Below, piece by piece: positions 4,147-32,346 of a stretch of DNA of 44,887 nt. The notes below the pieces were generated by a model, which saw only the letters and a program-made list of their open reading frames with translations, was not told the origin of the DNA and did no database searches. Origin of the DNA: Candidatus Methylacidiphilales bacterium (lineage in GTDB: Bacteria; Verrucomicrobiota; Verrucomicrobiia; Methylacidiphilales; JAAUTS01); assembly GCA_028713655.1 (NCBI GenBank), contig JAQTNW010000027.1:1-44887 (forward strand), written 5' to 3'. Made by a program: the position numbers and the translations under genes. Every line of letters begins with the position of its first letter. Position 1 is the first letter of the stretch.

Positions 4147-5817
4147 TTACCGCGGCTTCCTGCGGTTGAAACGAATGCGGTAGAGATATTTCCTTCGAAC
4201 AAACTGTTCGATTTGCTTTATAATGAAATAAGTGAATTGCACCAGCGAACGATGCTCCATCTTCAGATTTTCTTCCAATTCGTGCCAAAGCCATCGTTGC
4301 GGCGGATATCCGGAATCACTGGCCAGCGGATACGCGATTTGTTTCAAAATTCTCCTGTAAAATTCGGGCAGTCCGCTCGCGTAAGCATCCAAAATTGCCT
4401 TGTACTTTTGATAGCGACTGCCGCTTCTCCTGCATCCTGTGGGATTGTCCCGATACCAAAATAAAAATCTGGGAATAACATCCAGTTTGTAACCGCTGCG
4501 GGACAGATTGATAAAAAATTCCCAATCCTCAGCCAACAGAAGCACTTCCGGAAATCCCTGCAAAGCCAGAAAAACCTGACGCCTGACAATGCAGTTGGCA
4601 TCCCCAAAAACATCTTCCACCCAACCGGCTTCCATGGCTTGTCCCGCCGGAGTGACAACCCACGGGATTCGCAAGGGGTCCGGCCGGTCTTCAAAGGCTT
4701 TGTAAAAGCAGGTGCAACAATCGACGCCGCTCAGTTCAATCCCTTCGATAAATGATTCCAACATTTCCGGGAGGACTATATTGTCGGCATCGACAAAAAC
4801 CAAATAATCACCCTTCGCCAGGGCCGCGCCATGGTTCCGGCTGGCTCCGATTCCTTGATTTTTAGATTTGGCAATAAAGGTGTATCGAGGGGCGGGATAC
4901 TGTTCCTGCAACTCGTGAAATACACGCAGGGAAAACCCGTCCGTGCTGCCATCATCGACCACAATGACTTCAAAATTCGGGTAGGCGGATTTTTCCAAAG
5001 AAGCCAGAGTTTCCGGCAGATACCGGCCATGATTATAATGGGCAATGACGACCGAGACCAGGGGCGGGTTGAGCGCGATTTTACTCCGGATCACGTCGTG
5101 CTTATTGGTGGGAGCAGCTTGCTTTTTGAAAAGTTCCAGCCATTCCTGTTCAAGCGGGTCCAGCTCGGGGCGATTACATTTTAGGTTGGCTTGTGATTTT
5201 AAACGGTCCGTGAAAAACGGCAGTACCCGGTTGTCCGTCGGCACGGGCCATTGGTTTTCAACCATCCGACGCTTGATTTCATCGCTGCCAAATACAACCA
5301 GGTCGGCGTGTTCACAAACATAGCGTTCACACCAGGATGCCAATGCAGCCGGGATGGGCCAGCGCGGCCATGTTTCCCCCGCTTCAAGGCTTCGTTCTGA
5401 AGGGTCAAAAATGGCAAGCATCAGCAGCGTATTTTGAAAATCGCCCGCCATTCGCCTGGCTTGGACGGAACGGAATCCGATTCCGCGATGCTCTTGAAAG
5501 AGGACATGGGTATAATCCTGTTTTTTTAGAAAATCATACACCGCCAGGGATTGATTGATGAATCCCCAATACGCCTTGTCGTGGGGTTCCAGAGGCAGCC
5601 TTTCCAGCCGGACCAGATGTATTCCGGAGCTGGACAATGATCTCTCGATTGAAGCTCGAAGCCCGGCGTCCGGGCCCGTGTAAAGAACTGTTACAGAGCC
5701 AAAACGGGTCCGGCAGAGCCGGGCAAGACGCAAAAAATGCCCGCCCGCCGGATTGCAACCGGACGGTTCCTGCAGGCTGCCTGCAACCAGGCAAATTTGC
5801 GGTTCGTTTGCGTTCAC
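4147..5817 (-). CDS. Two-domain glycosyltransferase: GT4-like N-domain + GT2
   Basis: The N-terminal half resembles the acceptor half of GT4 enzymes (ICLVAGSL, then a Gly-Gly-His loop, LARLC, VTVLYTGP). The C-terminal half is a GT2 GT-A domain: VSVVIAHYN, VVDDGSTDG, a DAD at the metal site (VFVDADN) and AEDWEFF for the acceptor base. A Glu/Arg-rich helical tail ends in KQIEQFVRRKYL. It is a clear paralogue of the protein at 30715-32346, with the same domain order and tail. I place the start at GTG 5817 (VNANEPQICLV) because it lines up with the paralogue's MNPSAPQICIV. An in-frame ATG at 5964 would add 49 residues with no counterpart. It probably adds a sugar to a lipid-linked glycan in the cytoplasm. 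The usual GT4 C-terminal nucleotide-binding half is absent. Confidence 0.8.
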   Translation of the reverse strand: MNANEPQICLVAGSLQEPSGCNPAGGHFLRLARLCRTRFGSVTVLYTGPDAGLRASIERSLSSSGIHLVRLERLPLEPHDKAYWGFINQSLAVYDFLKKQDYTHVLFQEHRGIGFRSVQARRMAGDFQNTLLMLAIFDPSERSLEAGETWPRWPIPAALASWCERYVCEHADLVVFGSDEIKRRMVENQWPVPTDNRVLPFFTDRLKSQANLKCNRPELDPLEQEWLELFKKQAAPTNKHDVIRSKIALNPPLVSVVIAHYNHGRYLPETLASLEKSAYPNFEVIVVDDGSTDGFSLRVFHELQEQYPAPRYTFIAKSKNQGIGASRNHGAALAKGDYLVFVDADNIVLPEMLESFIEGIELSGVDCCTCFYKAFEDRPDPLRIPWVVTPAGQAMEAGWVEDVFGDANCIVRRQVFLALQGFPEVLLLAEDWEFFINLSRSGYKLDVIPRFLFWYRDNPTGCRRSGSRYQKYKAILDAYASGLPEFYRRILKQIAYPLASDSGYPPQRWLWHELEENLKMEHRSLVQFTYFIIKQIEQFVRRKYLYRIRFNRRKPR

Positions 5818-6029
5818 AATCAACTTGCATGATTCACACGCTTCATGGGAAATCCACCAGGTGCCTTTCTTGCCCTTAGGCCTTGGAGAAAGCACCAAGG
5901 GCATGCACGTTATAACCCGGATGCTGGGTTGCCGAGCTTTTTTGCCCGGTCTTTTTGCGCTCATTTTAATAATCAACCTGTTGGCGCTGCTGCACAACAG
6001 TGGAAAGACACACGCTGAACCTATGCGGG

Positions 6030-7136
6030 CTATTTTTTTATCTGGCTTGGGAACAGGCGGTTGCGGAGACGCAACATTGGCATTTCCAGAACCTCCGATA
6101 ACAAACAACCAACAACAAACGCGGCGGCGAAATAAGCAAGCGTAAGAATGAATGTTGAATGCCCGGCAAAGATCCGGGCAACCAACCAGTCCTTGGCAGC
6201 GAGGTGCCAGAGATAGATCGCGTAGGAATGGCGTCCCAGATAATCAGGCAGCCATGCCAGCGCCCGGCCCCAGCCCGCCGCGGGCCATGGTAAATCGGCC
6301 AATTGCGCCAAAATGATGATGCCCGAAAGATAACAACTCGTTGGAATTAAAGCCGTCACATACCAGGAATGAGGCAACCACAGTTGGGTGGCGGGCCAGA
6401 GCATCACCACCGCCAATCCCACCCAGGCAATTCTGAAACGTGCAAATATCGACAAACACTGCGGCTCGAAATCATACAGATATCGCAACAGGACCCCTGC
6501 CGCCAGACTGTCCACGCGCAGGTGCGATGGATTTAATTGCTTGAAAAAATTGAAACGCGACGGTTCCAATCCGCATTGAATCAGCCGGGCGGACAGGCAA
6601 AACACCAGAACTCCCAGCAAAATCCAAGGCAGCTTTTGCAGCTTTTCGGAATGAATTTTATTGCAGCGCAGCAACAGATAGAACATGCCGGCCAACAGCA
6701 GGTAAAAATGCACCTCGACGGCAAGGCTCCAGGTGTGCGGAAACATGGCGCGCCGGTAGCTCTGGAAAAAACAGGCTTCCCTGAAAATACGCCCCGCCAA
6801 TTTCATGCCTGACGCCTCACCGACGGCAACACTCATCACGGCTGCAACCAATACCAGAACATAAAACAATGGAAGGATCTTGAATGCGCGCCGGATCAAG
6901 AACCGCTTCCCCCGCACATTTCCCGTGGCCTTGTATTCCGCAAACAAAAGACCGGAAACCAAAAATCCGCTGAGCACGAAAAAGAAATCCACCCCGATCC
7001 AGCCCATTTCCCTGATCCAATGATAAAGCCATCCGGAAATACCCGGCAGGCTGCCGGTCAAATCCCAACTGTGGGAAAACATGACCAGCAATACCGCCAG
7101 AAATCGCAAGCTGTCAAACCATGCAAAATGTTTCAT
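6030..7136 (-). CDS. AT3-family membrane O-acyltransferase (OafA-like)
   Basis: The 368-aa protein has about ten membrane segments and the acyltransferase 3 start FDSLRFLAVLLVMFSHSWD (residues 7-25), whose H22 lies at the catalytic position. It is followed by GVDFFFVLSGFLVSGLL and RRAFKILPLFY, the conserved R-x(10)-H family pattern. HTWSLAVEVHFYLLL at about 148-162 is the other signature. Members transfer acetyl or other acyl groups to sugars on the periplasmic side. No SGNH domain is attached. It lies upstream of the fused glycosyltransferase on the same strand (stop 6030; next start 5964 or 5817), which suggests it decorates the same glycan. It ends in a run of seven A on the coding strand. 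Confidence 0.85.
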   Translation of the reverse strand: MKHFAWFDSLRFLAVLLVMFSHSWDLTGSLPGISGWLYHWIREMGWIGVDFFFVLSGFLVSGLLFAEYKATGNVRGKRFLIRRAFKILPLFYVLVLVAAVMSVAVGEASGMKLAGRIFREACFFQSYRRAMFPHTWSLAVEVHFYLLLAGMFYLLLRCNKIHSEKLQKLPWILLGVLVFCLSARLIQCGLEPSRFNFFKQLNPSHLRVDSLAAGVLLRYLYDFEPQCLSIFARFRIAWVGLAVVMLWPATQLWLPHSWYVTALIPTSCYLSGIIILAQLADLPWPAAGWGRALAWLPDYLGRHSYAIYLWHLAAKDWLVARIFAGHSTFILTLAYFAAAFVVGCLLSEVLEMPMLRLRNRLFPSQIKK

Positions 7137-7236
7137 GAATATTCCCGACCGGCATTGTCAAATACTGTGTTTTTGCGCTGTTCCTGAATCTGCGCTTGGA
7201 ATTCTTAGGATCTCCTGCGGGCAATTGCAATCGATT

Positions 7237-8622
7237 CTAGCGCCAGGTTTCCCTCCACGCTTGAAATTCTGCGGGACGAAGGCGGTAACGGGCAATGTTA
7301 CCCTCATGCAGGCTGCTTAATTCCGTCTCTACAATCTCAACAAAGCGCGGTTGGTCAGGGGCCGGAATCAAGGCGTCCGCGCTGCCTGCAATCCATTTGA
7401 CAGCGGCAGTTTTGTTTTTTCCGCCGCGCACCACCTCCGCAACCACATTGCGGATCTGTGTCCGGTACTTCAACCGGAACATGTCCGGCTCACCCAGGGA
7501 CTGGCATACGGCCGAATAGCGGGCGCACGAGCGCTCGTAGGCCCACAGAAACACGTCCCGCAAATACTCAACGCGGTTCAATTCATACACCCCGAGGATA
7601 CCGTTGACATAGTCATCCTTCGGCACATCCACAAACGAAAGCGGGCAAAGATTGCGCAGCACCAGCGGAATATTGGCCGCAAGGCGTGAAACTCGCTTAT
7701 TCACATCCTCGAACGGCTGCAGATACGGAATATGAACCATAACAAAAAATGCCTGTTCGAAGGCGTTTTGGATTTGCGCCGCTTTATCCAGCACAAGCTG
7801 GAAATGGTCTTCTATCATCTGCGGCTGCTCCAGAGGATGATAGACAGTTCCGGAAATGCCTACTGGATTGGCGCGCAACCTTCCCGCAGCGTTTGGATTT
7901 TGCAGCAGATTGTCCGCGAGCAATGCGTGCAGATTGAACAACGTATAGCGGTTGAAGCCGATTTCGTCCGCCTGTTCCGCCAGCAATTCGATTGCGGCCT
8001 TGTGGTTTAAAATCATTTGGGCTTCTTTTGCGTTCCGTCCTTCCGCGTTTTCGCCCAAAGCCAGAAGCCGTTCGGTTTCCAGCAATGAATACGTGTTGCC
8101 TTCGAGCCGACTCGAATTCCATGACAGGTCTATGAGCAGGCGATCCAGCACCTTTCGGAAATGGGTGCCCGCAGGCTGTGGCGCTCCCGTCGCCTGCCCC
8201 AGGGCTGCAAGCCTCGAAAGATGCTCCGGCAAAAGATAGGCTGAAGCATTCGGGCGGTATTTTTCCAAAAAAGAGGCCTGATACCCAATCGGACGCCGGT
8301 TTGATAATGGGCGCATTATGCTCCGGAAGATATTGCTTGCTGCGGATGAAAGCGGCAGTTCACTGCGTTTTATTTCCGCAGGTTGTTCCTTGACAGTTAA
8401 GCCGGAAGAAATTTCATTGAGGCGGTAGCGCCGCCCCCGCTGCTGTCCTTGCGGCGACAACCGGCCTTGCTTCACGAGCGCAGCTAGACGTCGCTGCAAA
8501 GTCCGCCGGGGCACCTGCCCGGACAGCAGTGCTTCAGCCTGTTCGATTGAAATGGGATCCAACACGTTCCGAAATACTTCCAGAACGGGGAGCAAATCAC
8601 TTTCCGTGATGATTTTTGGCAT
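7237..8622 (-). CDS. Fic-family protein with N-terminal winged helix and variant Fic motif
   Basis: Residues 1-70 form a winged-helix DNA-binding domain (LSGQVPRRTLQRRLAALVKQ). The Fic core follows. An inhibitory helix motif S170-x3-E174-G175 sits inside WNSSRLEGNTY, so this looks like a class II self-inhibited Fic. The active loop reads QPFEDVNKR at 302-310, where canonical Fic has HPFxxGNGR: the catalytic His is Gln and the loop ends in NKR, as in Doc. From memory this LQPFEDVNKR form recurs in a subfamily of bacterial Fic proteins. Canonical AMPylation is therefore uncertain. A C-terminal wing (residues about 400-461) is unassigned. The upstream operator array at 8634-8720 suggests autoregulation. 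Confidence 0.82.
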   Translation of the reverse strand: MPKIITESDLLPVLEVFRNVLDPISIEQAEALLSGQVPRRTLQRRLAALVKQGRLSPQGQQRGRRYRLNEISSGLTVKEQPAEIKRSELPLSSAASNIFRSIMRPLSNRRPIGYQASFLEKYRPNASAYLLPEHLSRLAALGQATGAPQPAGTHFRKVLDRLLIDLSWNSSRLEGNTYSLLETERLLALGENAEGRNAKEAQMILNHKAAIELLAEQADEIGFNRYTLFNLHALLADNLLQNPNAAGRLRANPVGISGTVYHPLEQPQMIEDHFQLVLDKAAQIQNAFEQAFFVMVHIPYLQPFEDVNKRVSRLAANIPLVLRNLCPLSFVDVPKDDYVNGILGVYELNRVEYLRDVFLWAYERSCARYSAVCQSLGEPDMFRLKYRTQIRNVVAEVVRGGKNKTAAVKWIAGSADALIPAPDQPRFVEIVETELSSLHEGNIARYRLRPAEFQAWRETWR

Positions 8623-8633
8623 TCCGCTTTATT

Positions 8634-8720
8634 ATGGCGCAAAACATAAAATACGCCATATAAATCTAATATAATGCCATAAAATTCATTTATACGCCAT
8701 ATAGATAATTTATATGGCGT
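8634..8720. promoter_or_regulatory. Operator-like array upstream of the Fic gene
   Basis: Several copies of ACGCCATATA or its core GCCAT occur in an AT-rich stretch: forward copies at 8653-8662, 8675-8681 (partial) and 8694-8703, and reverse copies at 8634-8639 (partial) and 8711-8720. The copies at 8694 and 8711 form a perfect inverted repeat with 10-bp arms and a 7-bp spacer. The GCCAT cores of the three forward copies start at 8655, 8676 and 8696, about two helical turns apart. This is what a cooperative repressor site looks like, and the winged helix of the adjacent Fic protein is the natural candidate binder. The copy nearest the gene lies 12 bp before its ATG. Confidence 0.7.
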
Positions 8721-8751
8721 GTAAATGGTGTTTTGTCGTAGTAAGTCTATT

Positions 8752-9789
8752 TTATGCGCCAAATACGTACTCAAACAGCTTGTCGTCCGTGTGGTATTCC
8801 AACACATGGCGTCGTGCGGCTACCGACATGGCATGTAGCGCGGTTTTGTCTGCCAGCGCCTGCTTGGCCACGCGCTTTAAGTCATCTCCCTCGACTCCGT
8901 AATAAAAGGCATGCACACGGTCGATCAGGGGTCGGTATCGCAAGATGCGGGGATAATTGATCAATGGGACGGCTCCAACCATGCAGGCTTCATAATGGCG
9001 ATGGCAATCCCAGCCATGCCCTTCGGGAGACCAGACAAGCCAGGAGCGCGCACATTTTTCAAGAAATTCCTTCCGGGGGATTCCCCGGCCCAGAATGATC
9101 TCCACGGCAAACCCTTCCCTGCGTAGTTCCTCCAATAATTTTACTCCGGTTTCCCGGGACATTTCGCCCTTGCAGGTTCCAATGAAGAGAATATCGATGT
9201 CCTTGGGCGAACTTGGATCGATGGATCTGGCCGCTTCGTCATATTTCAGCCCCAATGAGATGGGTTTGATTTTCGCATGATTTTTCCGGAACACTTCCGT
9301 TTTTCGGACAGCCGAGGTGTCTTCCATACGTCCGGTTGTGAACATAAAACCATTTTCGATTTTTACAGGCATTTCACGCCAGTAATATGTACGGCATTTT
9401 TTCAACAAGCCGAAAAACTGGGGTGGAATCAACGCGGGATCATCCTTTCGATCCACCACAATCAGCGGAACAGATGTTCCCTGCACCAACCCTAGGATGA
9501 TCCAGGGGCCGAAAGCGTGAAATCGTCCGCAGCAACAGCGGAGGATTTGAATAAGATTGGAGATCGCATTTCGTTCGCGCCGCCAGGGAGTACTGCAAAT
9601 GCCGTAAAAGGATGCCACGACCACATCATACTCTCCGCAGGCCAACTTTCGCTTCAACCCGCAAAAAAGGCGGAAGGTCATGTTGGTTGCGTCCGGGGCT
9701 TTTTTCCCGATCTGGTAATAATCGACTTGGGATGGGCGGATCTGCTTGAAATAAGAGCCTGCGCCGATCTCCAAAATCCGGATTTTCAT
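8752..9789 (-). CDS. Glycosyltransferase, Glyco_trans_1_2/exostosin-like family (copy 1 of 3)
   Basis: The 345-aa protein has a GT-B-like layout. Its hallmark WSPEGHGWDCHRHYEACMVG (253-272), followed by AVPLINYP, matches the nucleotide-sugar-binding end of Glyco_trans_1_2 enzymes. A second motif, PLIVVDRKDD at 108-117, is shared with the proteins at 15020-16096 and 34588-35715, so these three are paralogues. It sits 36 nt after the GT2 gene on the same strand and is probably cotranscribed with it. Donor and acceptor sugars cannot be deduced. Predicted location is cytoplasmic or membrane-peripheral. Confidence 0.75.
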   Translation of the reverse strand: MKIRILEIGAGSYFKQIRPSQVDYYQIGKKAPDATNMTFRLFCGLKRKLACGEYDVVVASFYGICSTPWRRERNAISNLIQILRCCCGRFHAFGPWIILGLVQGTSVPLIVVDRKDDPALIPPQFFGLLKKCRTYYWREMPVKIENGFMFTTGRMEDTSAVRKTEVFRKNHAKIKPISLGLKYDEAARSIDPSSPKDIDILFIGTCKGEMSRETGVKLLEELRREGFAVEIILGRGIPRKEFLEKCARSWLVWSPEGHGWDCHRHYEACMVGAVPLINYPRILRYRPLIDRVHAFYYGVEGDDLKRVAKQALADKTALHAMSVAARRHVLEYHTDDKLFEYVFGA

Positions 9790-9825
9790 CAGCTTTAAAG
9801 AATGTTAGGTCCGTTGGCGGAGTTC

Positions 9826-10656
9826 CTATCGATCAATCCAGCCCTCAGGCCATTGATGTGCGGTGATTTCCGGCGGCAGATCTGCAGTCGGAATGCGCTC
9901 CAGCCGTTCGTAGAGTAAAATATCCTTGTGCATGTAGTGGCGGGCATTTATGGCGGGCGGGTTCAGCCAGACTTCTTCAAACCAGGTTGGATCCACCTCA
10001 TGGGCATGACCCCAGTTGAGCAGCTTGGTTTTCATGCGGGCATCGTCACCCAAACTTGAACCATGATGCATCCGGATTTCTTTCGGGAAATAAACCGTCT
10101 TGGGCTTACGCCCCGTGCGCAGGTATTCCAGCCAGCGCGCAGGTTTCCACCAATTCACATTCCGGCAGTTCTCAAAAACAAACCCCCTTTTCAAAAAAAC
10201 TAGAGGCCTGTAGCCATCGCCCGGCTCCACGCCGCGCAGATTCCATTTTTTAAAGTAAAAATTTGTGGAAACGCGATAACCCGCCAGGCGTTCCTTCTGC
10301 ACACGGCGCCAAGCCTCACCCAATACCTTGCTCTCCCAGACCTCGTCGCTGTCCACAATCAGGTAATAATCCGCATCCGGCGCCTGGAAAATCGCCGCGT
10401 TGCGCAATTTGGATTCGGCTTCTTTACCGGGCAAGGCTTCGAGATCACGACGCAGTACGAAACGCAGTTTGTTGTCTGGATCGGGGAAATCGAGCAACTT
10501 GGAAACGGTTTCGTCGGGTTCGACGTATTTCCCCTTGAAATTACGATCATAGGCCGTTACCACGCAAATCGTGTCCACCACCGGATAAATGCCCGATAAA
10601 ACCGGAATCAAAAACGGTTGTTCTTTGAAAACCAACAGCACTGCGGCCAATTTCAT
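9826..10656 (-). CDS. GT2-like (GT-A fold) glycosyltransferase
   Basis: The 276-aa protein starts KLAAVLLVFKEQ and carries a DSD at 102-104 (YYLIVDSDEVWE), the metal- and nucleotide-sugar-binding motif of GT-A enzymes. It then has RGFVFENCRNVNWWKP and a histidine pair in IRMHHGSS. The start at 10656 is chosen because a strong Shine-Dalgarno AAGGAGG lies 7 nt upstream (10664-10670); the longer reading frame from 10689 would bury it. It is the first gene of a two-gene minus-strand operon with the glycosyltransferase ending at 8752. It diverges from the sulfotransferase gene. The specific sugar is unknown. Confidence 0.78.
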   Translation of the reverse strand: MKLAAVLLVFKEQPFLIPVLSGIYPVVDTICVVTAYDRNFKGKYVEPDETVSKLLDFPDPDNKLRFVLRRDLEALPGKEAESKLRNAAIFQAPDADYYLIVDSDEVWESKVLGEAWRRVQKERLAGYRVSTNFYFKKWNLRGVEPGDGYRPLVFLKRGFVFENCRNVNWWKPARWLEYLRTGRKPKTVYFPKEIRMHHGSSLGDDARMKTKLLNWGHAHEVDPTWFEEVWLNPPAINARHYMHKDILLYERLERIPTADLPPEITAHQWPEGWIDR

Positions 10657-10748
10657 GGTATCCCTCCTTCTCGAAAACAGACAGGGCACAGACTATCCTT
10701 CCAGCCGTGAAGAGCAAGGGGTTTGAGTCAGTCCTTGCGCTCTTTTGA

Positions 10749-10777
10749 GACAGAAAATTTTGCGTGCTTAATATAAT
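10749..10777 (+). promoter_or_regulatory. Possible promoter of the sulfotransferase-FkbM operon
   Basis: A perfect TATAAT lies at 10772-10777 in an AT-rich stretch of the divergent intergenic region. At 17-bp spacing the upstream hexamer is GACAGA, a poor -35 match, so the assignment rests mainly on the -10 box and on location. The predicted transcript would start near 10784 and leave a leader of about 85 nt before the ATG at 10869. Confidence 0.35.
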
Positions 10778-10868
10778 TTAAAAAAAACCGCTTGTTGACC
10801 AAAGTCGTCTTTTGTTGGGCAAAAACAACTTGATTCGCTTTTGCCCCCTTCTATGTTCCGCAGGTACA

Positions 10869-11726: not shown

Positions 11727-11798
11727 CCCGCATCGCCAGATTCGCGCGGCTAAGCGGCGGTTGCCGCGCCCATCAGGCAAGAATGAAAGAGATAGCCC

Positions 11799-13772
11799 AT
11801 GGAGAACAAGTCCAATGTATTTGAAAAAGCGGCCCGCCTGCGCAATGAATTAGCGCAAGCGTGTGATAGCATCAATCAAGTCCAGCCGATGGCGCCCGGC
11901 CTCCACGCGGTTGCCGCGGAATGTGCCGTCAGGCTTTCGCATGCCAGCGTCATCATTACTGTAAACGAAGTCAATCAACGGCATGGGACCGGGATTCTGG
12001 TCAAAAGGCTCTTTGGCCGGACTCCAAATCTCGTTTCCATCCGATCCAGAAACCATTATGGCGAGCAGCACTTTGGTGACATCGACCTGTGCCTTAACCA
12101 CACCGGTCTGTCGCGCAGGGATGTTTTCAGGAATGTAGAACAGGCGCTCAGGCAAATATCCGTGGAGAGGGTCGTGTGCGTGCCTTATTGCAGCGATTGC
12201 CTGCTTTCCGCCCTGGCCATAAAGGAAATATTCGATGTACCGCTTTGTGTGTATGTCATGGATGACCAGAATGTGCATTTCAATGGAATTCCAGACTCCC
12301 TGATGAAGGAGGCACTCGAAAAGGCGGCCTTGCGGCTTGCGATCTCGCCCGAGATGCGGGACGCATACGAGACAAAGTTCGGGCTTAAATTCTACCTGCT
12401 TCCGCCTGTTGTTGAGCCAGAACTGATCCAGGTCCAGCCTGAAACTGCCGATCCGCAAAATGATGCACCGGATGCCGGCCTGATGATCGGGAATGTGTGG
12501 AGTCCGAAGTGGCTATGCCTCCTTCGGGAGACTATCCATAAGTCGGGTACAAAGATTCATTGGTATGGCAATTCGGGGACGGCGTGGCTGGATACATACA
12601 AAAGTGAACTTGTTAACGACGGCATACTTGATTTTGGATTTGTGTCGGAAGCTGAATTAAAGCGCGTGTGCAAGCGGTACAAGTATGCCATCGTGCCTTC
12701 CGGAACGCTCGACCTGGATGATGATCGGGTCAGCATTGCCGCGCTAAGCCTTCCATCCCGGCTTCCGTTCCTTTTCTCAGTCTGCAACATTCCTGTGATT
12801 GTTTTGGGAAGCCAAAAAACGGCTGCCGCACGTTTCGTGAAGCGGTTTCATTTGGGTGTTACGTGCGATTACAACGCAACTGCTTTTCGCGAGGCGATAG
12901 AAAAGGTCTCCACTGCGGGAACACGGCAGTCAATCTGGCGCACCAAGGCGGAAAACGCGGATTTATTTTCCGCCGCCGAGGCTGGCGATTGGATTTGGAA
13001 CTCGCTTGCATTAGGCAGGGCTTGTGATGATAAATACGAAAAATTAATGCCGCGCAGCGAAAGCGATCTGGTTGGCTTTATTGAGGCACCGGCGCCGAAG
13101 GATGTATTCCGGAATTTTCAGGAAACATACCACTGCATGCAACGGCTGAGGAATGCCGGATGTGCTCCCGACTTCGTAATTGATGTTGGCGCTTCATGCG
13201 GCGTGTGGTCTGATACGGTAAAGAGAGTGTTCCCGCATGCACGCTACATTCTAATTGACCCCCTTGCCTCGAAATACCGGGACATGTCAACTTGCTATTC
13301 GGATGCGAATCCTGAGTTTGAATGGATCGAAGCCGCAGCATCAAATGGAACGGGTCAAACATCACTGCAAGTCTCACCCGATCTTTACGGAAGCTCGCTG
13401 CTTCGACCGGCTGATTTTCGATGCTATGAAAGTGTGCCTGTCGAAATTACGACGATTGACAACATCGCGTCTGCCAAAAAACTCTCGGGCCACGGCATCT
13501 TGAAAATAGATGTTCAATGCGCCGAACACATGGTGCTGGCGGGCGCCCAAAAAACCCTGGCGCAAATTGATGTGCTTGTTTTGGAGTTGTCACTTGTCAG
13601 GTACGCTAACGAGGCGAAAATATTCAAGGAGATGCTTGACCTGATCTACAGCCTGGGATTTAGATATTATGATGACGCGGGCGTCTGGCGTTCTCCTGTA
13701 AATGGAACTCTCCTGCAGAAAGATATAGTATCCGTAAGGCAGGATGTTTTTCTTTTCAGGGTGAATGACTGA
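11799..13772 (+). CDS. Fusion of GT-B glycosyltransferase-like domain with FkbM methyltransferase
   Basis: In this 657-aa protein, residues about 50-405 look like a GT-B glycosyltransferase: an opening strand VIITVNEVNQRHGTG, CVYVMDDQ, AISPEMRDAYETKFG, then IGNVWSP and HWYGNSG at the start of the second Rossmann half. Residues about 455-657 are an FkbM-type SAM methyltransferase: VIDVGASCGVWS at 460-471, the acidic IDP after strand 2, and ILKIDVQCAEHMVL with the IDxxxAE family motif. Joining both on one chain suggests a sugar is transferred and then O-methylated, or that the methyl group caps the chain. Glycosyltransferase assignment of the first half is by fold resemblance. The stop lies 2 nt before the next FkbM gene. 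Confidence 0.72.
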   Translation: MENKSNVFEKAARLRNELAQACDSINQVQPMAPGLHAVAAECAVRLSHASVIITVNEVNQRHGTGILVKRLFGRTPNLVSIRSRNHYGEQHFGDIDLCLNHTGLSRRDVFRNVEQALRQISVERVVCVPYCSDCLLSALAIKEIFDVPLCVYVMDDQNVHFNGIPDSLMKEALEKAALRLAISPEMRDAYETKFGLKFYLLPPVVEPELIQVQPETADPQNDAPDAGLMIGNVWSPKWLCLLRETIHKSGTKIHWYGNSGTAWLDTYKSELVNDGILDFGFVSEAELKRVCKRYKYAIVPSGTLDLDDDRVSIAALSLPSRLPFLFSVCNIPVIVLGSQKTAAARFVKRFHLGVTCDYNATAFREAIEKVSTAGTRQSIWRTKAENADLFSAAEAGDWIWNSLALGRACDDKYEKLMPRSESDLVGFIEAPAPKDVFRNFQETYHCMQRLRNAGCAPDFVIDVGASCGVWSDTVKRVFPHARYILIDPLASKYRDMSTCYSDANPEFEWIEAAASNGTGQTSLQVSPDLYGSSLLRPADFRCYESVPVEITTIDNIASAKKLSGHGILKIDVQCAEHMVLAGAQKTLAQIDVLVLELSLVRYANEAKIFKEMLDLIYSLGFRYYDDAGVWRSPVNGTLLQKDIVSVRQDVFLFRVND

Positions 13773-13774
13773 CC

Positions 13775-14998: not shown

Positions 14999-15019
14999 TA
15001 TTCCGGTACATTTCCCTCT

Positions 15020-16096: not shown

Positions 16097-16114
16097 AAAC
16101 GTCCTTCCAATGTG

Positions 16115-18402: not shown

Positions 18403-18411
18403 AATAAAAAA

Positions 18412-22504: not shown

Positions 22505-22514
22505 AACCAGAGTC

Positions 22515-25758: not shown

Positions 25759-25770
25759 GGCATTTTTTAT

Positions 25771-26535
25771 TTAAGTTGCTGCTTCTGCCGATCGTGTTGA
25801 CCAAAGCACCGTCCCCAGAGCTGAATCAAAGGCATCTGAACCGTAAAGGCTTCCAGCGCTGACCTGCAAAATCCGGCATTTATTTTTTTGCAACCAATCC
25901 TTCATTTGCTTTCCGGACCAATACGGGGCGTGCCATTCCGCCAGCCCCAATGGGAAACTCAATATAAACTCAGTTTCATTTTCAAAAATGAATTTTTCCG
26001 CACCTTCGATATCAATTTTGATCAAATCATACGAATTTGTGCCGACAATTTCCGCCAGCGGCGCGGACGGAATCAGGATGGTTTTTCGGTTGCGCCCCCA
26101 CTCCCGATGGATTGAGGACCCGGTGGAAGTGCCACTGGCAAAAAATGGCGCCTTAGCAGACTTTGGCCCGATCAAGGCGTTTTCCACCCGCATGATCGGC
26201 TCCAGCTTATTCAAGGCAAGAAGTCTTCCGGCGTATTTACAGGACAGTGGATTCGCATCTACCAATAATGCTTCCTGCGACGTTTTGCCCAGGGCATCAT
26301 ACAACCAAAGGCTAAAATAACCTATATTGCAGCCAACATCCACCCAACGCTTTACCTCCGAAAGACTGGCAAGATTCGGTCGGTAGCATTGCTCGTAAAA
26401 AACCTCTTGAAAGGCACCGAAAGCATCCTTGGTGGGAATCAAGATCTTGAGGCGCGATGCCGTTTTGACGGCGCATTCTGCGAACGGGAATAATTTCCAT
26501 GCCAGCGATTTCAGAAGTCTTCGCGCCTTGTTCAT
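25771..26535 (-). CDS. FkbM-family methyltransferase
   Basis: The 254-aa SAM-dependent enzyme carries motif I VKRWVDVGCNIGYFSLWLYD at 61-80, ALLVDANPLSC for the ribose-binding acid, and the FkbM signature YDLIKIDIEGAEKFIF. It is expected to O-methylate a hydroxyl of a sugar or lipid-linked intermediate. It lies after the GT4 gene on the same strand (26783-26629 end), with a 93-nt gap that contains a strong inverted repeat at 26543-26571. The short KARRLLKSLAWKLFPF start is basic and amphipathic, perhaps for membrane contact. Confidence 0.82.
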   Translation of the reverse strand: MNKARRLLKSLAWKLFPFAECAVKTASRLKILIPTKDAFGAFQEVFYEQCYRPNLASLSEVKRWVDVGCNIGYFSLWLYDALGKTSQEALLVDANPLSCKYAGRLLALNKLEPIMRVENALIGPKSAKAPFFASGTSTGSSIHREWGRNRKTILIPSAPLAEIVGTNSYDLIKIDIEGAEKFIFENETEFILSFPLGLAEWHAPYWSGKQMKDWLQKNKCRILQVSAGSLYGSDAFDSALGTVLWSTRSAEAAT

Positions 26536-26542
26536 TTATCAA

Positions 26543-26571
26543 GAACATCCTACACTTCTTTAAGGATGTTC
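26543..26571. promoter_or_regulatory. 9-bp inverted repeat upstream of the FkbM gene
   Basis: GAACATCCT (26543-26551) pairs perfectly with AGGATGTTC (26563-26571) across an 11-nt loop. The centre lies about 22 bp upstream of the FkbM ATG (26535) and after the GT4 stop (26629), so it is intercistronic. It lacks a clean T tract on either strand, so an operator or a transcript-processing hairpin is more likely than a classic terminator. Confidence 0.5.
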
Positions 26572-26628
26572 AAGATATTTGGAGCGGTATTTCGCAAACA
26601 GGTGTGGTTGAATTGGTTTGCCTAATAA

Positions 26629-27783
26629 CTACCTGGTCGCCCTATTTTTGCCGATTAAAACCTGCCCGATGATGCGTTCCACGGTCTCGCACATGGCTTC
26701 ATTGGTGTGATGTTTGAGTACGGACTCCCGTCCCGCGCCGGCCAGGCTTTCGCGTAATTGCGGTTCGGCCAACAACCGTCCGATTGCATCGGCCAGTTGC
26801 GCTGCATTGCCGGGTTCCACCAGCAGGCCGGTGCTTTCATGCTGTACCACCTCGGGAATGCCGCCGATTCTTGTGCCTACCACCGGTACGCCGGTCGCCT
26901 GCGCCTGCAGAACCGCCTGGGGAATCCCCTCATGCGCCAGGGAAGGCAGGACAAAAACCGAAAGCGAGGCCATGATTTGCGGGACATCCGTACGGTGGCC
27001 TAACAATGAAAAGCAATTATGTAATCCAGCCTCCGCAACCCGCTGCCGAAGCTCGTCGCGTCCGGGCCCGTCGCCCGCAACCACGAAATGGGCGCGTTGG
27101 CCGCGCCCCCGCAGCAGGCTGGCCGCTTCGACAAAGACCGCATGCCCTTTCCAGCTCCGGATCACAGCGATCAGCCCCACCAGCGGCAGCTCCGGAGGCA
27201 GACGCAGCTCCTCATGCAGAGTACCCCGGATTCCCGGTTGGAAACGTTCCACATCCACCCCGGTTGGGATGCAGGAAACCAATGCAGGATCCAGCGACAG
27301 CCTTTCTGATAAATGCCTTGAAATCTTTTCACTTGTGGTCAAGACCCGGTCGGCCAGGGAGGAAAACGCAAGGCGGCTCAGCCAGGGATTCCGGTATTCC
27401 ACATCGATGTGCCGGGAGCGCAGCAGCACGGGCGTGCGGGCATACCTCGCAGCAATGCCACCCAGCCAGCCGTCCCGGGAGCTGTGTGTGTTGACGACAT
27501 CGATCCGGTTTTCACGCAGTTGCCGGACGAGCTTCAGTGTGGATGAGACGTAGCTGAGTCGGCGGCAATCCAGTGAAAAAACCGGGATGGAAACGGCCTC
27601 GGCTTCCGTATAAATACGGCTGATGGAAGGCGCGGCCAGCCAGACTTCATGCCCGCGCGCGCGCATGGCCTTCAGTTCCTGCAAAACGCGGATTTCCTGC
27701 CCGCCCCAACCGAGTGAACTCTCCGTATGCAGGATCCGGAAACGCCGTTCCGCCCTTGCCTTGCTGTTGCCTTGCTGTTTCAT
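26629..27783 (-). CDS. GT4-family glycosyltransferase
   Basis: The GT-B protein has RILHTESSLGWGGQEIRVLQELKAM with the WGGQE loop of the acceptor half, a central NTHSSRDGWLGG motif, SCIPTGVDVERFQPG at the linker, LIAVIRSWKGHAVFVEAASLL, FVVAGDGPGRDELRQ and the donor signature VLPSLAHEGIPQAVLQAQATGVPVVGTRIGGIPEVV. The start is ATG 27783; the GTG at 27843 would add 20 residues that sit in the divergent promoter of the ABC exporter. The second Glu of EX7E is replaced by Gln, a common variant. The enzyme is a typical polysaccharide-locus GT4. Confidence 0.85.
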   Translation of the reverse strand: MKQQGNSKARAERRFRILHTESSLGWGGQEIRVLQELKAMRARGHEVWLAAPSISRIYTEAEAVSIPVFSLDCRRLSYVSSTLKLVRQLRENRIDVVNTHSSRDGWLGGIAARYARTPVLLRSRHIDVEYRNPWLSRLAFSSLADRVLTTSEKISRHLSERLSLDPALVSCIPTGVDVERFQPGIRGTLHEELRLPPELPLVGLIAVIRSWKGHAVFVEAASLLRGRGQRAHFVVAGDGPGRDELRQRVAEAGLHNCFSLLGHRTDVPQIMASLSVFVLPSLAHEGIPQAVLQAQATGVPVVGTRIGGIPEVVQHESTGLLVEPGNAAQLADAIGRLLAEPQLRESLAGAGRESVLKHHTNEAMCETVERIIGQVLIGKNRATR

Positions 27784-27873
27784 CAATAATACCGCGCTGC
27801 CCTTATGGGGTAAAAGCTTGTCATCACCCGCGGTTTTTGGCACACCTTTTTGCCCTTTAACCGCGCTTTCACT

Positions 27874-29805
27874 ATGCCATCACGCCACGACTATCAAGCC
27901 AAACAAAAACTCACGACGATTCAGGGCGCGGTTTTTCTCTACAAAGTATGCGGCAAGTACCTGCGCCGTTACTGGTTGCGCTTTGTTTTGGGGATTCTTC
28001 TGGGCCTCAGTTTCGGCATGGTCAACGCCAGTTCCCTCTGGGTCACCAAGACGTTGGTCGATCACATGACGCCTGCCACGCCAACTGCCGCGCCTGATGC
28101 CAAAAAGCCGGTTTCACCGCCCCCTGCTACTGCGGGATTCGTTAAGCAATTGCAGTACAAAGCCAAGATCACCGGACGCCGTTATGCGAAACGGATTGAT
28201 GAAACAACCGATCATTGGATTCCTCGCGTCGGGCGTTCCGTGCAGTGGCAGGAAATTGTCGGCGGCACTCTTCTGCTGCCATTTCTTCTATTCTTGCGCG
28301 GTGGCGTCAGTTACCTCAGCAGCTATTATTTTGCCTGGGTCGGCCTGCGCGTGACCAACGACCTGCGCCTCGACGCCCTCACCAAACTGCACTCTCTTTC
28401 CCTTGATTATTTCAACAAACGCAGTACAGCGGATCTGCTCGGCCGGGTCAACAGCGACACGGGCGTTATCCGCGCATTTCTCAGCCTGGGCTTTAATGAC
28501 ATCATCAAGGAACCTTTCACTTTCTTCTGCGTATTTTCCGCCATGCTGGTTATCAACTGGAAGCTGACCCTTTTTGCCTGCACGCTCATGCCCCTCTGCT
28601 TCATCCCTATCAGCATTCTCGGGAAAAAATCGCGCAAGGCCAGCCGGGCCGACAGCCAGAAGATGATGGGCGCCGAAAACGGCTTGATCGAAGCACTCGC
28701 CAATATCCGCGTTGTGAAAAGTTTTCGTCTGGAAAGCCAGCAGAAGGAAGAATTTGCAGACGCGCTGCGGACTTCCATCAAATACGCCATGCGCAACATC
28801 AAGGCCAAGGAACTGCTCAACCCGATCATCGAAGTCATTTCCATGCTCGGCATCAGCGTCATCATCGTTTATGTGATCTCGCAGAACATTCCCATCCCCA
28901 ATCTGGCGGCATTCCTGGTGGGGTTGATTACCCTCTACAGCCCTCTTAAAAAAATCGGCGGCATCCACATTTACTTTTCCCAGGCCTCCTTTTCTGTCGA
29001 ACGCCTCTCTGAATTTTTCAGCGAAGTTCCCACCGTTGCCGAAAAACCCAATCCCGTCCTGCTGGAAAGATTTTCGCGCAACATTCGCCTCGAAAACGTG
29101 GGTTTTTCCTACGGCGACGGCATGGTCCTGCAAAACGTCTCGCTGCAGGTCCCGCGCGGAATGAAGCTCGGCATTGCCGGCGAAAGCGGCTCCGGGAAAA
29201 CAACCCTCATTAACCTGCTGCTCCGCTTCTACGACGTGACCGAGGGCCGGATTCTCGTTGACGGCCATGACGTGCGCGACCTCTCCTTCGACAGCCACCG
29301 CCGCATCATGTCGCTCGTCGGCCAGGAAGTCCTGCTTTTTAACCGCAGCATCGCCGAGAACATCGAGTTCGGCCTGCTTGGCGCCACCCGGACGCAGATC
29401 GAGGAAGCAGCCAAAGGTGCTTTCGCCCATGAGTTCATCACCCAACTGCCTCATGGCTACGACACGATCATTGGGGAACGGGGCGTTCGCCTGTCCGGAG
29501 GCCAGCGCCAACGCCTGGCCATCGCCCGCGCTTTTGTCCGCGATGCGCCCATCCTCATTCTGGATGAAGCCACTGCTTCGCTCGATTCCACGGCGGAAGC
29601 CGAAGTACAGGCCGCCATCGACCGTCTGGCGCAGGGCCGCACCGTCATCAGCATCGCCCACCGACTTTCCACACTCAAAGACTGCAACCTCATCGTCGTT
29701 TTTGACAAGGGGCGCATTATCGAACAGGGCACCATGGGTGAACTCCTCCGCGCCAAGGGCGCATTTGCCATAATGGCGGCGCGGCAGGGGATATTGGATG
29801 CCTAG
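27874..29805 (+). CDS. MsbA-like ABC exporter (fused TMD-NBD), head of a glycosyltransferase operon
   Basis: The 643-aa half-transporter has six TM helices followed by a nucleotide-binding domain: Walker A GESGSGKTT (436-444), Q-loop VGQE near 484, signature LSGGQ at 540-544, Walker B LILDE around 562 and H-loop His596. The fusion is that of lipid flippases such as MsbA. A 60-residue insertion after TM1 (MTPATPTAAPDAKKPVSPPP, then a basic helix) is unusual. The next gene starts 6 nt downstream, and the run MsbA-GT-GT-GT2 (27874-33387) is probably one transcript. It likely flips a lipid-linked glycan or lipid A core across the inner membrane. ATG 27874 is preferred over TTG 27850. Confidence 0.87.
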   Translation: MPSRHDYQAKQKLTTIQGAVFLYKVCGKYLRRYWLRFVLGILLGLSFGMVNASSLWVTKTLVDHMTPATPTAAPDAKKPVSPPPATAGFVKQLQYKAKITGRRYAKRIDETTDHWIPRVGRSVQWQEIVGGTLLLPFLLFLRGGVSYLSSYYFAWVGLRVTNDLRLDALTKLHSLSLDYFNKRSTADLLGRVNSDTGVIRAFLSLGFNDIIKEPFTFFCVFSAMLVINWKLTLFACTLMPLCFIPISILGKKSRKASRADSQKMMGAENGLIEALANIRVVKSFRLESQQKEEFADALRTSIKYAMRNIKAKELLNPIIEVISMLGISVIIVYVISQNIPIPNLAAFLVGLITLYSPLKKIGGIHIYFSQASFSVERLSEFFSEVPTVAEKPNPVLLERFSRNIRLENVGFSYGDGMVLQNVSLQVPRGMKLGIAGESGSGKTTLINLLLRFYDVTEGRILVDGHDVRDLSFDSHRRIMSLVGQEVLLFNRSIAENIEFGLLGATRTQIEEAAKGAFAHEFITQLPHGYDTIIGERGVRLSGGQRQRLAIARAFVRDAPILILDEATASLDSTAEAEVQAAIDRLAQGRTVISIAHRLSTLKDCNLIVVFDKGRIIEQGTMGELLRAKGAFAIMAARQGILDA

Positions 29806-29811
29806 CTTTCC

Positions 29812-30708
29812 ATGAGCACTACATCCAGTTGTCTGGTTTTGGGGGCTGCTGCCGGACTCAAGCCGGAGGGCTTGGACGTTTTCATCAACAGCCTGCGCAA
29901 TACCGGCTATGCAGATTCCACCGCCATCGTGGTTTATGACAGCGACCGGGAACTGGCCACATGGCTCAAATCCCGCGGAGTTTTTGTTGTTGCCGTCCCC
30001 GCCCCTGCCAGGCCGGACAATTCGTTTCCTTCTCCCAAACGCATCAGCCAGGCGGGCCGGAATCTGCCGGGTTTTTTGAGGCGGCGGCTGATTGACCCGC
30101 TGGCAGCTGCACGCCTGCATATCCGATTCTCGCGATATTTATATTTTAACCGCTTTCTCCGCCGCCACAGGGATGAATTTACCCATGTTTTTCTCGCGGA
30201 CACCCGCGACATTGTGTTTCAAGCGGATCCTTTCCCCGCTCTGCAAAGCTGTGACGGTGCCTTGTGCCTTTTTGCCGAAGATCCGATCCGGGAGCAGGAC
30301 TTTAACACGCGTTGCGTTTTGGAGTTTTATGGCGCGGGCAGTTTGAAAAGCATCGGGCAGCAGCCGGGCTTCTGCTCGGGAACCACCGGTGGAGGCACCC
30401 GGGCCGTATTGGCATATCTTGACTGCATGGCCCGTGAAATCATCTGCAAATTAAAAATTTTGCATAAATATGACTACGGCGATCAGGCGGTACACATCTG
30501 GACCGCGTGGGCTGGACGGCTGCCCAAGTATCGCGTACTCGAAAATTTCAACGGTCCGGTGGCAAATCTTGGCATTGCAGACGCGGGCCGTTTCAGATGG
30601 AATAGCCAGGGTTTAATGCTTAACGACGATGGCAGCATCATTCCCGTGCTTCATCAATACAACCGGCATCCATGCCTTGAAAGCCTGGTCGAAAAGCTTG
30701 CCGCTTGA
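29812..30708 (+). CDS. Putative GT-A-type glycosyltransferase
   Basis: This 298-aa protein has VFLADTRDIVFQADPFPAL at 126-144. The DTRD (130-133) is the metal-binding DxD-like motif of GT-A enzymes, and FLADTRDIVFQxDPF is a recurring form in bacterial and eukaryotic nucleotide-sugar transferases. The protein ends with VLHQYNRHP, a conserved His-containing motif of the same set. It begins 6 nt after the MsbA-like gene. The donor sugar is unknown. The call rests on motifs only. Confidence 0.65.
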   Translation: MSTTSSCLVLGAAAGLKPEGLDVFINSLRNTGYADSTAIVVYDSDRELATWLKSRGVFVVAVPAPARPDNSFPSPKRISQAGRNLPGFLRRRLIDPLAAARLHIRFSRYLYFNRFLRRHRDEFTHVFLADTRDIVFQADPFPALQSCDGALCLFAEDPIREQDFNTRCVLEFYGAGSLKSIGQQPGFCSGTTGGGTRAVLAYLDCMAREIICKLKILHKYDYGDQAVHIWTAWAGRLPKYRVLENFNGPVANLGIADAGRFRWNSQGLMLNDDGSIIPVLHQYNRHPCLESLVEKLAA

Positions 30709-30714
30709 ATCGTA

Positions 30715-32346
30715 ATGAACCCGTCGGCCCCTCAAATTTGCATTGTCGCCGCATCCTTGTCCGCTTCGCCCAATGACGAAGGGGCAGGCGGGCACGCATT
30801 GCAACTGGCCCGGCTTTGTCTGGAGCATTTTGGTTCTCTCACGGTTCTTTACACAGGGCCGCGCTGGGACCGGCAGCCTGGCCTTGAAAAATCACTCACA
30901 GACGCAGGAGCCCGGTTTGTTTTTCTGGAAGATGTACCGCGGGAACCCCATGAAAATGACCAATGGGGGATCATCGATCAGTCGTCGGCTGTTTGCGATT
31001 TTCTAAAAACAGAAAACCACTCCCACATCGTTTTTCAAGACCAGCGCGGACCGGGCTTCAGAGCCATCCAGGCCAGGAGGATTGCCGGAGAATTTGAAAA
31101 TTCGGTTTTGATCCTCTGCATATTGGCTCCATCGGAATATTCCCTGGAAAAACAGGAGGCATGGAGCCGGTGGCCCGTTGTCGATGCCCTGGCCGGTTGG
31201 TGTGAACGTTATGCATGCGAACACGCGGATTTTGTGGCGTTCGCCGGCACGGAAGTCAGGGATTGGGTGACGGGGCGGGAATGGGTTGTGGCCCCAAAAG
31301 CCGCCTTAATGCCCGTGCCAAGTGATTCGCTGGAGGCAAGCAGGCAAAAATGGATCGATCTCTTCTCGGAAAGGCCCCCGGCCGCGCGTTTGGAAAAAAT
31401 CCGCGCGGAAATTGCAGCCAATCCCCCCCTGGTTTCGGTTATCATCCCGTATTTCAATTACGGAAAATATCTGCCGACAGCCCTGGCTTCCATTGCCGCC
31501 TCCACCTACCCGAACTTTGAAGTTTTCGTGGTTGATGATGCCAGTACGGATGAGTTCTCGCGCAGGATTTTCCGGGAAATGCGCGAGCTCTATGACGGCC
31601 CGAAATATGCCTTTATTTCCCGGAGGGAAAATGGGGGAGTGGCAGCGGTTCGAAACCACGCCGCCGCCCTGGCCCGGGGGGAATACCTGGTGTTTTTTGA
31701 TTCGGACAACATTGCCGACCCTGGCATGTTGCAGTCCTTTGTTGAAGGGATCATCCATGGCGGGGTGGATTGCTGTACATGTTATTACAAAACTTTTTCA
31801 AACACCACGATATCCGATCCCGAAACAGCGCTGGCTTGGGTAAGCACACCCATAGGAGCGGCCCTTGAAATCGGATGGATGGAAAACGTCTGCGGTGATG
31901 CCAACAGCATTGTCAGGCGTGATGTTTTTGAAAGTATTAAGGGCTTCCGCAGCGAGTGCGAGCCCGTGGAGGATTTTGATTTTTTTCTGCGTGTTTGTTT
32001 TGCCGGGCGCAAGGTGGACGTGGTCCCCCGGTTTTTGTTCTGGTACCGTGACAACCACGGCGGCCTGCGCCACAACGCCAATCGTTACAAAAGATACCAC
32101 ACTATTTTATCCACCTACACATCCGGCCTGCCCGCTTTCCACCAGAGAATTTTCAAACAGATTGCCTATCCCCTGGCCCGCCTTGCGGGATATCCCCCGC
32201 AGCGCTGGCGCTGGCATGACCTGCCATCAGACCGAACTGGTCCGAAAGACATTTCTCCCGCCCGTTTTGCCTATTCCCTTTTGAAACAAATTGAGCAATA
32301 CGTGAGAAAGCGCTATTTCAAGCGCGCTAAAAATCAATCCGATTGA
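30715..32346 (+). CDS. Two-domain glycosyltransferase: GT4-like N-domain + GT2 (paralogue of 4147-5817)
   Basis: In this 543-aa protein, residues 1-190 look like a GT4 acceptor half (ICIVAASL, GGHALQLARLC at 25-35, LTVLYTGP). From 239 a GT2 domain follows: SVIIPYFNYG at 241-250, VVDDAST at 272-278, DSDN at 329-332 and VEDFDFFLR at 418-426. The last 60 residues include a helical stretch RYKRYHTILSTYTSGLPAFH shared with the copy at 4147. Together the two copies define one architecture: a GT4-type half-module fused to a full GT2. The half-module may bind the acceptor or another protein. The gene is the third in the MsbA operon, 6 nt after the previous stop. Confidence 0.8.
   Translation: MNPSAPQICIVAASLSASPNDEGAGGHALQLARLCLEHFGSLTVLYTGPRWDRQPGLEKSLTDAGARFVFLEDVPREPHENDQWGIIDQSSAVCDFLKTENHSHIVFQDQRGPGFRAIQARRIAGEFENSVLILCILAPSEYSLEKQEAWSRWPVVDALAGWCERYACEHADFVAFAGTEVRDWVTGREWVVAPKAALMPVPSDSLEASRQKWIDLFSERPPAARLEKIRAEIAANPPLVSVIIPYFNYGKYLPTALASIAASTYPNFEVFVVDDASTDEFSRRIFREMRELYDGPKYAFISRRENGGVAAVRNHAAALARGEYLVFFDSDNIADPGMLQSFVEGIIHGGVDCCTCYYKTFSNTTISDPETALAWVSTPIGAALEIGWMENVCGDANSIVRRDVFESIKGFRSECEPVEDFDFFLRVCFAGRKVDVVPRFLFWYRDNHGGLRHNANRYKRYHTILSTYTSGLPAFHQRIFKQIAYPLARLAGYPPQRWRWHDLPSDRTGPKDISPARFAYSLLKQIEQYVRKRYFKRAKNQSD

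Follow-up and report, generated by a model that had tools for sequence, protein, structure and literature searches.

Two proteins encoded in a 44,887-nucleotide stretch of DNA from a Candidatus Methylacidiphilales bacterium (assembly GCA_028713655.1, contig JAQTNW010000027.1; hereafter the window, which is one whole contig of a 3.29 Mb draft genome that is 95% complete) probably represent single-activity enzymes of glycosyltransferase (GT) family 2, each of which retains the N-terminal half of a family 4 glycosyltransferase (GT4) as a non-catalytic platform and derives from a complete GT4-GT2 fusion. Because relatives of these proteins show the same loss of the other GT4 half more than once, the leftover half probably still has a non-catalytic job. 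Direct observations carry this reading: the predicted fold of the half, the missing domain, the retained helix, the GT2 motifs, the sister relation of the two proteins, the existence of complete relatives, the repeated loss and the constraint on the half.

Two paralogous proteins join half of a GT4 enzyme to a GT2 domain

The two proteins, P0001 and P0002, are laid out as follows.

4147..5817, minus strand: P0001, half-GT4 + GT2 protein of 556 amino acids; an open frame with a GTG start inside a longer open frame
5200..5817, minus strand: P0001 GT4-type N-domain, residues 1-206 (PF13579, E 3.2e-5, below cut-off)
5119..5157, minus strand: P0001 retained last (crossover) GT4 helix, residues 221-233, EQEWLELF (alignment to complete relatives)
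4444..5070, minus strand: P0001 GT2 domain, residues 250-458 (PF00535, E 1.8e-29; D343-A-D345-N, E430-D431)
4150..4443, minus strand: P0001 helical basic C-terminal tail (alignment with P0002)
30715..32346, plus strand: P0002, half-GT4 + GT2 protein of 543 amino acids; an open frame
30715..31329, plus strand: P0002 GT4-type N-domain, residues 1-205 (fold model, predicted template modelling score (pTM) 0.80; best PDB matches GT4 enzymes)
31333..31368, plus strand: P0002 retained GT4 crossover helix, residues 207-218, QKWIDLF (DSSP of the model; structure alignments)
31420..32055, plus strand: P0002 GT2 domain, residues 236-447 (PF00535, E 3.6e-29; D329-S-D331-N, E419-D420; GT-A fold matches)
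32056..32343, plus strand: P0002 helical basic C-terminal tail (predicted local distance difference test (pLDDT) mostly <50)

P0001 and P0002 align over their full length with 50% identity and 570 bits, a score that rules out a chance or mis-framed similarity, and the motifs QIAYPLA, YPPQRW and KQIEQ do not differ between them. A preliminary description of the window, made from its letters alone, had called them paralogues with shared motifs and one domain order (a GT4-type half without its nucleotide-binding half, then a full GT2 domain and a helical tail), and Pfam, the fold model and the alignment all agree with it. It had also placed them far apart on opposite strands, which is correct, and on either flank of the glycan region, which is not strictly so: four glycosyltransferase-like genes, one of them below its Pfam cut-off, lie past P0002 at 32350-36786. 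When the whole genome was searched with a profile of the pair, 15 matches were obtained and only P0001 and P0002 were matched in the N-terminal part; in the other 13 the profile covers GT2 only (frames were read for three). The tail of P0002 scores as an amphipathic helix (1.3% of shuffles score as high), and that of P0001 does not do so significantly (7.1%).

The N-termini of the pair match GT4 N-domain families only, below curated cut-offs (PF13579, E 3.2e-5 and 0.012), and up to E 1 neither protein has a Pfam match to the GT4 C-domain families PF00534 and PF13692 or to the GT47 and GT64 families of the bi-domain exostosins. A known curated family was considered and rejected, the NCBIfam matches being on the GT2 part only and far below cut-offs, with a single stray exception (E 0.15). 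In a search of PDB sequences, all 33 matched sequences likewise lie on the GT2 part. Within a 706-position model of the family, the P0001 N-domain corresponds to positions 2-206 and is 50% identical to the modelled P0002 domain, while positions 207-370 are without counterpart in either protein.

A fold model of P0002 residues 1-236 (pTM 0.80, mean pLDDT 75) alternates strands and helices and closes with helices at 207-218 and 223-235. On structural alignment, the best entry of the list was sucrose-phosphate synthase (SPS) 6kih (Z 16.1), followed by BshA 3mbo (Z 15.9), MshA 3c48 (Z 15.0) and PimB' 3oka (Z 14.9), all four of which we take to be GT4 members; the GT4-like character proposed earlier for residues 1-230 is borne out by these matches to GT4 N-domains. 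Judged by their titles, the 50 PDB entries listed are GT-B-fold enzymes, three of them UDP-GlcNAc 2-epimerases. Since the structure alignments take in both the beginning and the very end of the GT4 chain (for example, 3mbo 2..376), helix 207-218 stands where the last GT4 helix packs on the N-domain. Another structural counterpart of the P0002 half is 6ldq, an engineered SPS construct made up of the N-domain and the last helix (175 of 187 residues aligned, Z 14.4), and in P0001 the EQEWLELF helix lines up with the final GT4 helix in complete relatives, for instance L016 (L numbers denote relatives). A fold search with the whole protein returned a list filled by GT2-type matches, with little on the N-domain. 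On the strength of the model, the N-terminal part of the pair is predicted to be a GT-B-type N-terminal Rossmann domain.

The GT2 domains score 103.3 and 102.3 bits against PF00535 (cut-off 23.3) and carry a nucleotide loop (VVDDGST/VVDDAST), a DxD site (DADN/DSDN) and a catalytic-base motif (EDW/EDF). The P0002 domain has fold matches among GT-A enzymes, for example RmlT 8bz8 (Z 21.4), and the best PDB sequence match, over the GT2 part, is the chondroitin polymerase K4CP (2z86/2z87; E 2.1e-27). The GT2 domain is thus expected from its motifs to be active and to perform the sole sugar transfer. The GT4 donor motifs GR...KG and (D/E)x7E are gone from P0001 and P0002 along with their domain, while the GT2 DxDN and ED motifs are kept; GT4 activity in the pair would be nil, since the donor domain with its acidic pair and the conserved histidine are missing.

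Relatives range from complete fusions to eroded halves

The search for relatives covered the 60 nearest genomes, the window's own among them, together with 62 from the order, 384 from the class and 387 from the phylum; these sets overlap, and each counts the window's genome. Matches were found in 11 of the 60 nearest (E<=1e-30), 11 of the 62 and 23 of the 384 (both 1e-40), and 11 of the 387 (1e-60), the class and phylum searches having scored the two best candidates per genome, so that further paralogues may be missed. None of six other genomes of the same family gave a match. Methane/ammonia monooxygenase genes are present in all four genomes tested from family f8 of the same order and absent from the window's own genome, from two others tested and from 14 controls; together with the 2.3 Mb genome size of f8, this pattern suggests the order Methylacidiphilales of the Verrucomicrobiota.

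The majority of relatives carry a whole GT4 ahead of GT2 (N-domain, nucleotide-binding domain, last helix, GT2), including 24 of the 35 rows of the final tree described below. Both GT4 Pfam halves are above cut-off in L016, L017 and L022 and in two enterobacterial proteins; in L070 the C-half is above and the N-half below. Complete fusions are scattered among genomes of the phylum and occur also in Ensifer, Klebsiella and Enterobacter. A single model matches N-domain and GT2, in that order, in complete and half forms, and the GT2 tree agrees, which indicates common descent; judging from these alignments, the N-domain and GT2 of the pair appear to share descent with the complete GT4-GT2 fusions.

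Scans of viral contigs in IMG/VR yielded two complete fusions (L070 and L072) and a cut one (L071), the rest matching the GT2 part only; of two further viral-contig scans, one returned the same three and the other nothing, and a genome-contig scan gave two remote GT2 loci. By eye, L070 and L072 resemble the enterobacterial plasmid protein, and their contigs may be plasmid rather than virus. On an Ensifer megaplasmid (L126), as judged by eye, two different complete GT4-GT2 fusions are consecutive and near a UDP-glucose 6-dehydrogenase-like gene.

Three states can be distinguished among the 35 tree rows. In 14, L125 among them, both GT4 donor-site motifs (GR...KG and the acidic pair) are kept, and the GT4 active-site histidine, absent in P0001 and P0002, is present in all of these complete rows except L064. 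Ten rows, labelled degraded by eye from the motif table, retain the GT4 C-domain and have lost one or both donor motifs. The remaining 11 have no C-domain: P0001, P0002, L026, L027, L059, L123, L124, L060, L066, L068 and L069. The N-terminal start of L018 and L021 is missing or damaged. In L020, L023, L024, L025 and L028, a two-domain GT4 with degraded donor motifs (of the GPLESRKR type, with the first acidic residue lost) precedes GT2; by these motifs it is likely a dead GT4 still in place, and perhaps a step preceding deletion.

The borders of the loss vary among half forms. In the window pair and in L059, L123 and L124, the cut runs from just past the linker to just ahead of the last helix, which is retained as EQEWLELF, RQKWIDLF or VWAQWLQEL. 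L026/L027 and L068 have lost the last GT4 helix as well, L060 has a weakly matching N-part (25 bits), and L066/L069 are further eroded, with an N-part of ~170 residues before GT2 that the family model does not recognise. In genus g95, to which the L059 group belongs, three of four genomes have the half form, one of them a single-contig assembly. The architecture thus does occur in other genomes; it did not arise as an isolated invention but by erosion of a complete GT4-GT2 fusion.

The nucleotide-binding domain was lost more than once

The history of the loss was read from an unrooted tree of 35 rows built on the GT2 domain alone. Before it was built we dropped other GT2 proteins (L062, L063, L117), sequences cut by contig ends (L043, L050, L071) and same-place repeats; L061, the outgroup of a first GT2 tree, was omitted from the final one, and the named plasmid proteins are outside it. 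Six changes of the half state fit this tree best (bootstrap range 5-6), at least three of them on strongly supported branches, and a single origin, with all half forms in one clade, was rejected (approximately unbiased test, p-AU 1.2e-5). P0001 and P0002 are sisters (support 100/100 in the first tree and 100/99 in the final tree); as they are closest to each other, the duplication came after the loss. The complete GT4-GT2 form would be ancestral, because the half keeps the GT4 helix in the right place and complete forms are widely spread.

We propose the following course of events. The ancestor would have joined a retaining GT4 enzyme, with the two Rossmann domains of the GT-B fold, to an inverting GT2 enzyme of GT-A fold behind it, and probably transferred two sugars one after the other. 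Then the GT4 step would have been lost and the whole nucleotide-sugar-binding domain (~155-170 residues) cut out, from just past the exit linker of the N-domain to just ahead of the last GT4 helix. This helix would pack back on the N-domain, and with it retained the remaining half is probably still able to fold unaided. After the loss, the gene would have been duplicated. GT2, in which the nucleotide loop, the DxD metal site and the motif of the catalytic base are kept, would perform the only sugar transfer, and selection would have kept the half as a platform that stabilises GT2 and fixes where it sits with respect to glycan, membrane or partner. Such a platform role is what the retained fold and its constraint suggest.

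The half is constrained, but less than GT2

Pairwise estimates of the ratio of non-synonymous to synonymous change (dN/dS) in the half are about 0.30 for the window pair, 0.40 for L026/L027, 0.18-0.28 for three g95 pairs and 0.32 for L066/L069. Change is fastest in the GT4 C-domain, in complete pairs as well, where it runs at 1.05-4.5 times the GT2 rate. By these estimates the half is constrained, though less than GT2; the constraint appears real but not strong.

Conservation at individual positions was assessed at 47 N-domain positions, each conserved in 9 or more of 13 complete relatives. Of these, 18 are unchanged in both proteins and 29 differ in one or both, some conservatively. The kept positions are mostly structural-looking (C9, V11, L31, L45, L97, E164, Y166, E169, A171, D172, W190), with G25, Q108, G114 and F115 placed near the cleft, a placement that is inferred from strand ends and not from coordinates. 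Altered in both proteins are T12-P13-D14, G17, N21-G22, T26, H106, W110, H137, W142 and P177. In a leave-one-out control, P0001 and P0002 each keep 23 of 47 N-domain positions (0.49), against 0.45-0.94 in complete rows (9 of 13 at >=0.73; the start of L021 is damaged), 0.36-0.76 in degraded rows and 0.33-0.59 in six half rows. For GT2, the pair keeps 63 of 73 and 57 of 73 conserved positions, half rows 0.78-0.86 and complete rows 0.76-0.95, the value for L053 being spoilt by a second GT2 domain. By these values, GT2 is kept as well as in complete forms and the GT4 half has drifted like degraded ones. The SPS mutants H158A and E331A are dead, according to the available part of one report (PMC7264703), and H137 may correspond to that histidine; the altered positions make GT4 catalysis by the half most unlikely.

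Several points weigh against a retained, non-catalytic platform. All three SPS truncations were easily purified, as described in the accessible part of the crystallographic report, including one without the last helix (PMC7264703), so the last helix is not strictly needed. The spinach SPS A-domain is reported in the same portion to bind uridine diphosphate (UDP) and UDP-glucose (PMC7264703), which means that a GT4 N-domain on its own is not necessarily inert. The Z ranking of the half was drawn from Foldseek's own top 1000 chains, and Foldseek E-values for the half are weak (1 match <=0.001), with many short-chain dehydrogenases listed, which gives weight to the sequence link with complete relatives as a separate line of support. 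Confidence in the full-length P0002 model is moderate (pLDDT 65.6), and the way in which the half and GT2 touch is therefore not reliably predicted. The window pair is close to saturated at synonymous sites, and at non-synonymous sites the half evolves at 1.2-2.5 times the rate of GT2; the same ratio is 1.0-1.9 in complete pairs (n = 5), 1.2-1.7 in degraded pairs (n = 3) and 0.17 in a fourth degraded pair (L025/L028). Finally, a single loss common to the window pair and genus g95 (the L059 group) was not rejected (p-AU 0.23), and the two may share one loss event.

GT-B N-domains generally hold the acceptor. Like a built-in carbohydrate-binding module, the half might therefore still bind the growing glycan for the GT2 site as an acceptor clamp, a role that would suit both the purifying selection on the half and the four near-cleft residues kept in both proteins. 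We nevertheless regard it as rather improbable: loop residues conserved in complete relatives, T12-P13-D14, H106, H137 and W142 among them, are altered in both proteins, and the half forms disagree with one another, the histidine being kept in L059 and gone in L026, L027 and L068. The preliminary description had suggested an acceptor clamp or docking unit; with 29 of 47 positions changed, loop residues such as the histidine included, a structural platform fits at least as well as a clamp. The confidence that we attach to the several readings should not be taken as exclusive shares of a whole.

Genomic neighbourhood and the remaining alternatives

The genes of the window include the following.

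27850-29805, plus strand: MsbA-like ABC exporter of 651 amino acids (TIGR02203, 432.6 bits, below cut-off 602)
29812-30708, plus strand: protein of 298 amino acids (no Pfam or NCBIfam match)
32350-33387: GT2 gene after P0002
20426-25758 and 35752-36786: five GT9 (heptosyltransferase-type) genes, four of them successive on the plus strand

P0002 is third in a tight run (MsbA-like ABC transporter, 298-residue protein, P0002, GT2) with gaps of 3-6 bases, whereas P0001 lies 25 kb away and adjoins an acyltransferase gene. The window is rich in GT4, GT9, GT2 and FkbM-methyltransferase genes, a gene content suggestive of lipopolysaccharide core or surface-glycan loci.

Separate observations concern individual genes. 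In the exporter, the ABC_membrane match starts only at residue 117, the N-terminal part being longer than the family model or diverged from it. In the 298-residue protein, the stretch HVFLADTRDIVFQADPF resembles, by eye, a GT-A type DxD site. The plus-strand gene at 11799-13772 encodes an FkbM methyltransferase domain (residues 462-623) after ~450 residues without a family match, and a 461-residue Fic-domain protein is encoded on the minus strand at 7237-8622, within the glycan region.

The position of P0002 in this run favours the half being a protein-docking unit that ties GT2 to the transporter or to other glycosyltransferases. We consider this unlikely, as P0001 is without such neighbours and no homologue of the ABC transporter turned up in any of 12 neighbourhoods of relatives, seven of which centre on half forms (phmmer, E 1e-8, frames of at least 150 amino acids; some neighbourhoods are cut by contig ends). 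The transporter link is thus local to the window, and in these neighbourhoods the architecture does not track MsbA-like operons.

That the half is a decaying remnant or an assembly artefact without function would accord with its faster divergence than GT2, the few conserved positions that it keeps and the still shorter remnant in L066/L069. It is very unlikely nonetheless, given dN/dS well below 1 in four groups, two intact paralogues and the recurrence of the same form in genus g95 (three of its four genomes, one a single contig). Split GT-B enzymes such as Alg13/Alg14 do exist, but a separate protein supplying the missing C-half in trans is scarcely credible here, as the GT4 histidine is also lost in P0001 and P0002 and a search of the genome (E <=0.001; 95% complete; a very diverged C-half would be missed) found no stand-alone GT4 C-half, all matches to PF13692 (30/30) and PF00534 (32/32) lying in frames of at least 364 amino acids.

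Comparison with known systems

A platform left over from a complete fusion can be set beside several known arrangements. The closest homologues are the complete GT4-GT2 fusions WP_023312630.1 (Enterobacter roggenkampii plasmid) and WXJ00118.1 (Klebsiella pneumoniae), which have the same domain order, with homologous N-domain and GT2, and match family-model positions 6-676 and 6-679; they differ in a full GT4 with GRLETRKG and ENSPYTVYE motifs and in length (740 amino acids against 543-556 in the pair). The Klebsiella and Enterobacter fusions, near a polysaccharide pyruvyl transferase gene, are annotated merely as glycosyltransferase. This carries a warning for annotation, as relatives of the pair bear the same plain label, and labelling them GT4 would lead one to expect, wrongly, a further activity and a further sugar in the glycan. 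K4CP (2z86/2z87) resembles the pair in being a two-transferase polypeptide, but presumably has two GT-A domains and no GT4 part. In Alg13/Alg14, one GT-B half is on its own polypeptide, whereas the half of the pair is fused to GT2 and no partner half was found.

We found no description of the architecture in the open-access literature, in keeping with the preliminary description, and the available portions of PMC11231755 and PMC9124407 contain no case of a half-GT4 + GT2 protein. The nearest likeness to the half itself was made by hand. In the SPS work, as far as the accessible text goes, residues 27-220 and 406-426 were joined (6ldq), the sole one of three truncations to crystallise, and its authors count the last helix within the A-domain (PMC7264703). 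Like the half, 6ldq is a GT4 N-domain plus last helix without the C-domain; unlike it, 6ldq is a man-made crystallisation construct, neither natural nor fused to GT2. Repeated, selected loss of one Rossmann half might even have given rise to a new and stable type of domain, a natural half-GT4 (N-domain and crossover helix) reused as an acceptor-binding or docking module for the GT2 fused to it, although we put this forward only tentatively.

The closest design is that of EXTL3 and the bi-domain exostosins (GT47 + GT64), in which, as in the pair, a GT-B enzyme is fused ahead of a GT-A enzyme. The likeness is an analogy of design and not homology; these are animal Golgi proteins of other CAZy families, and EXTL3 keeps both Rossmann subdomains. 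In the part of the EXTL3 report available to us, the GT-B domain is judged inactivated yet retained, weak GlcAT-II activity was still seen in preparations, EXTL2 is noted to have lost its GT-B domain entirely, and its authors raise the question why EXTL3 did not likewise shed the dead part completely (PMC9178029). Two-enzyme glycosyltransferases with one dead partner are thus already known. The bacterial family displays the full series, from intact through degraded and half-deleted to further eroded forms, arisen more than once, and this series makes the question of retention testable by removing or swapping the domain in bacterial proteins.

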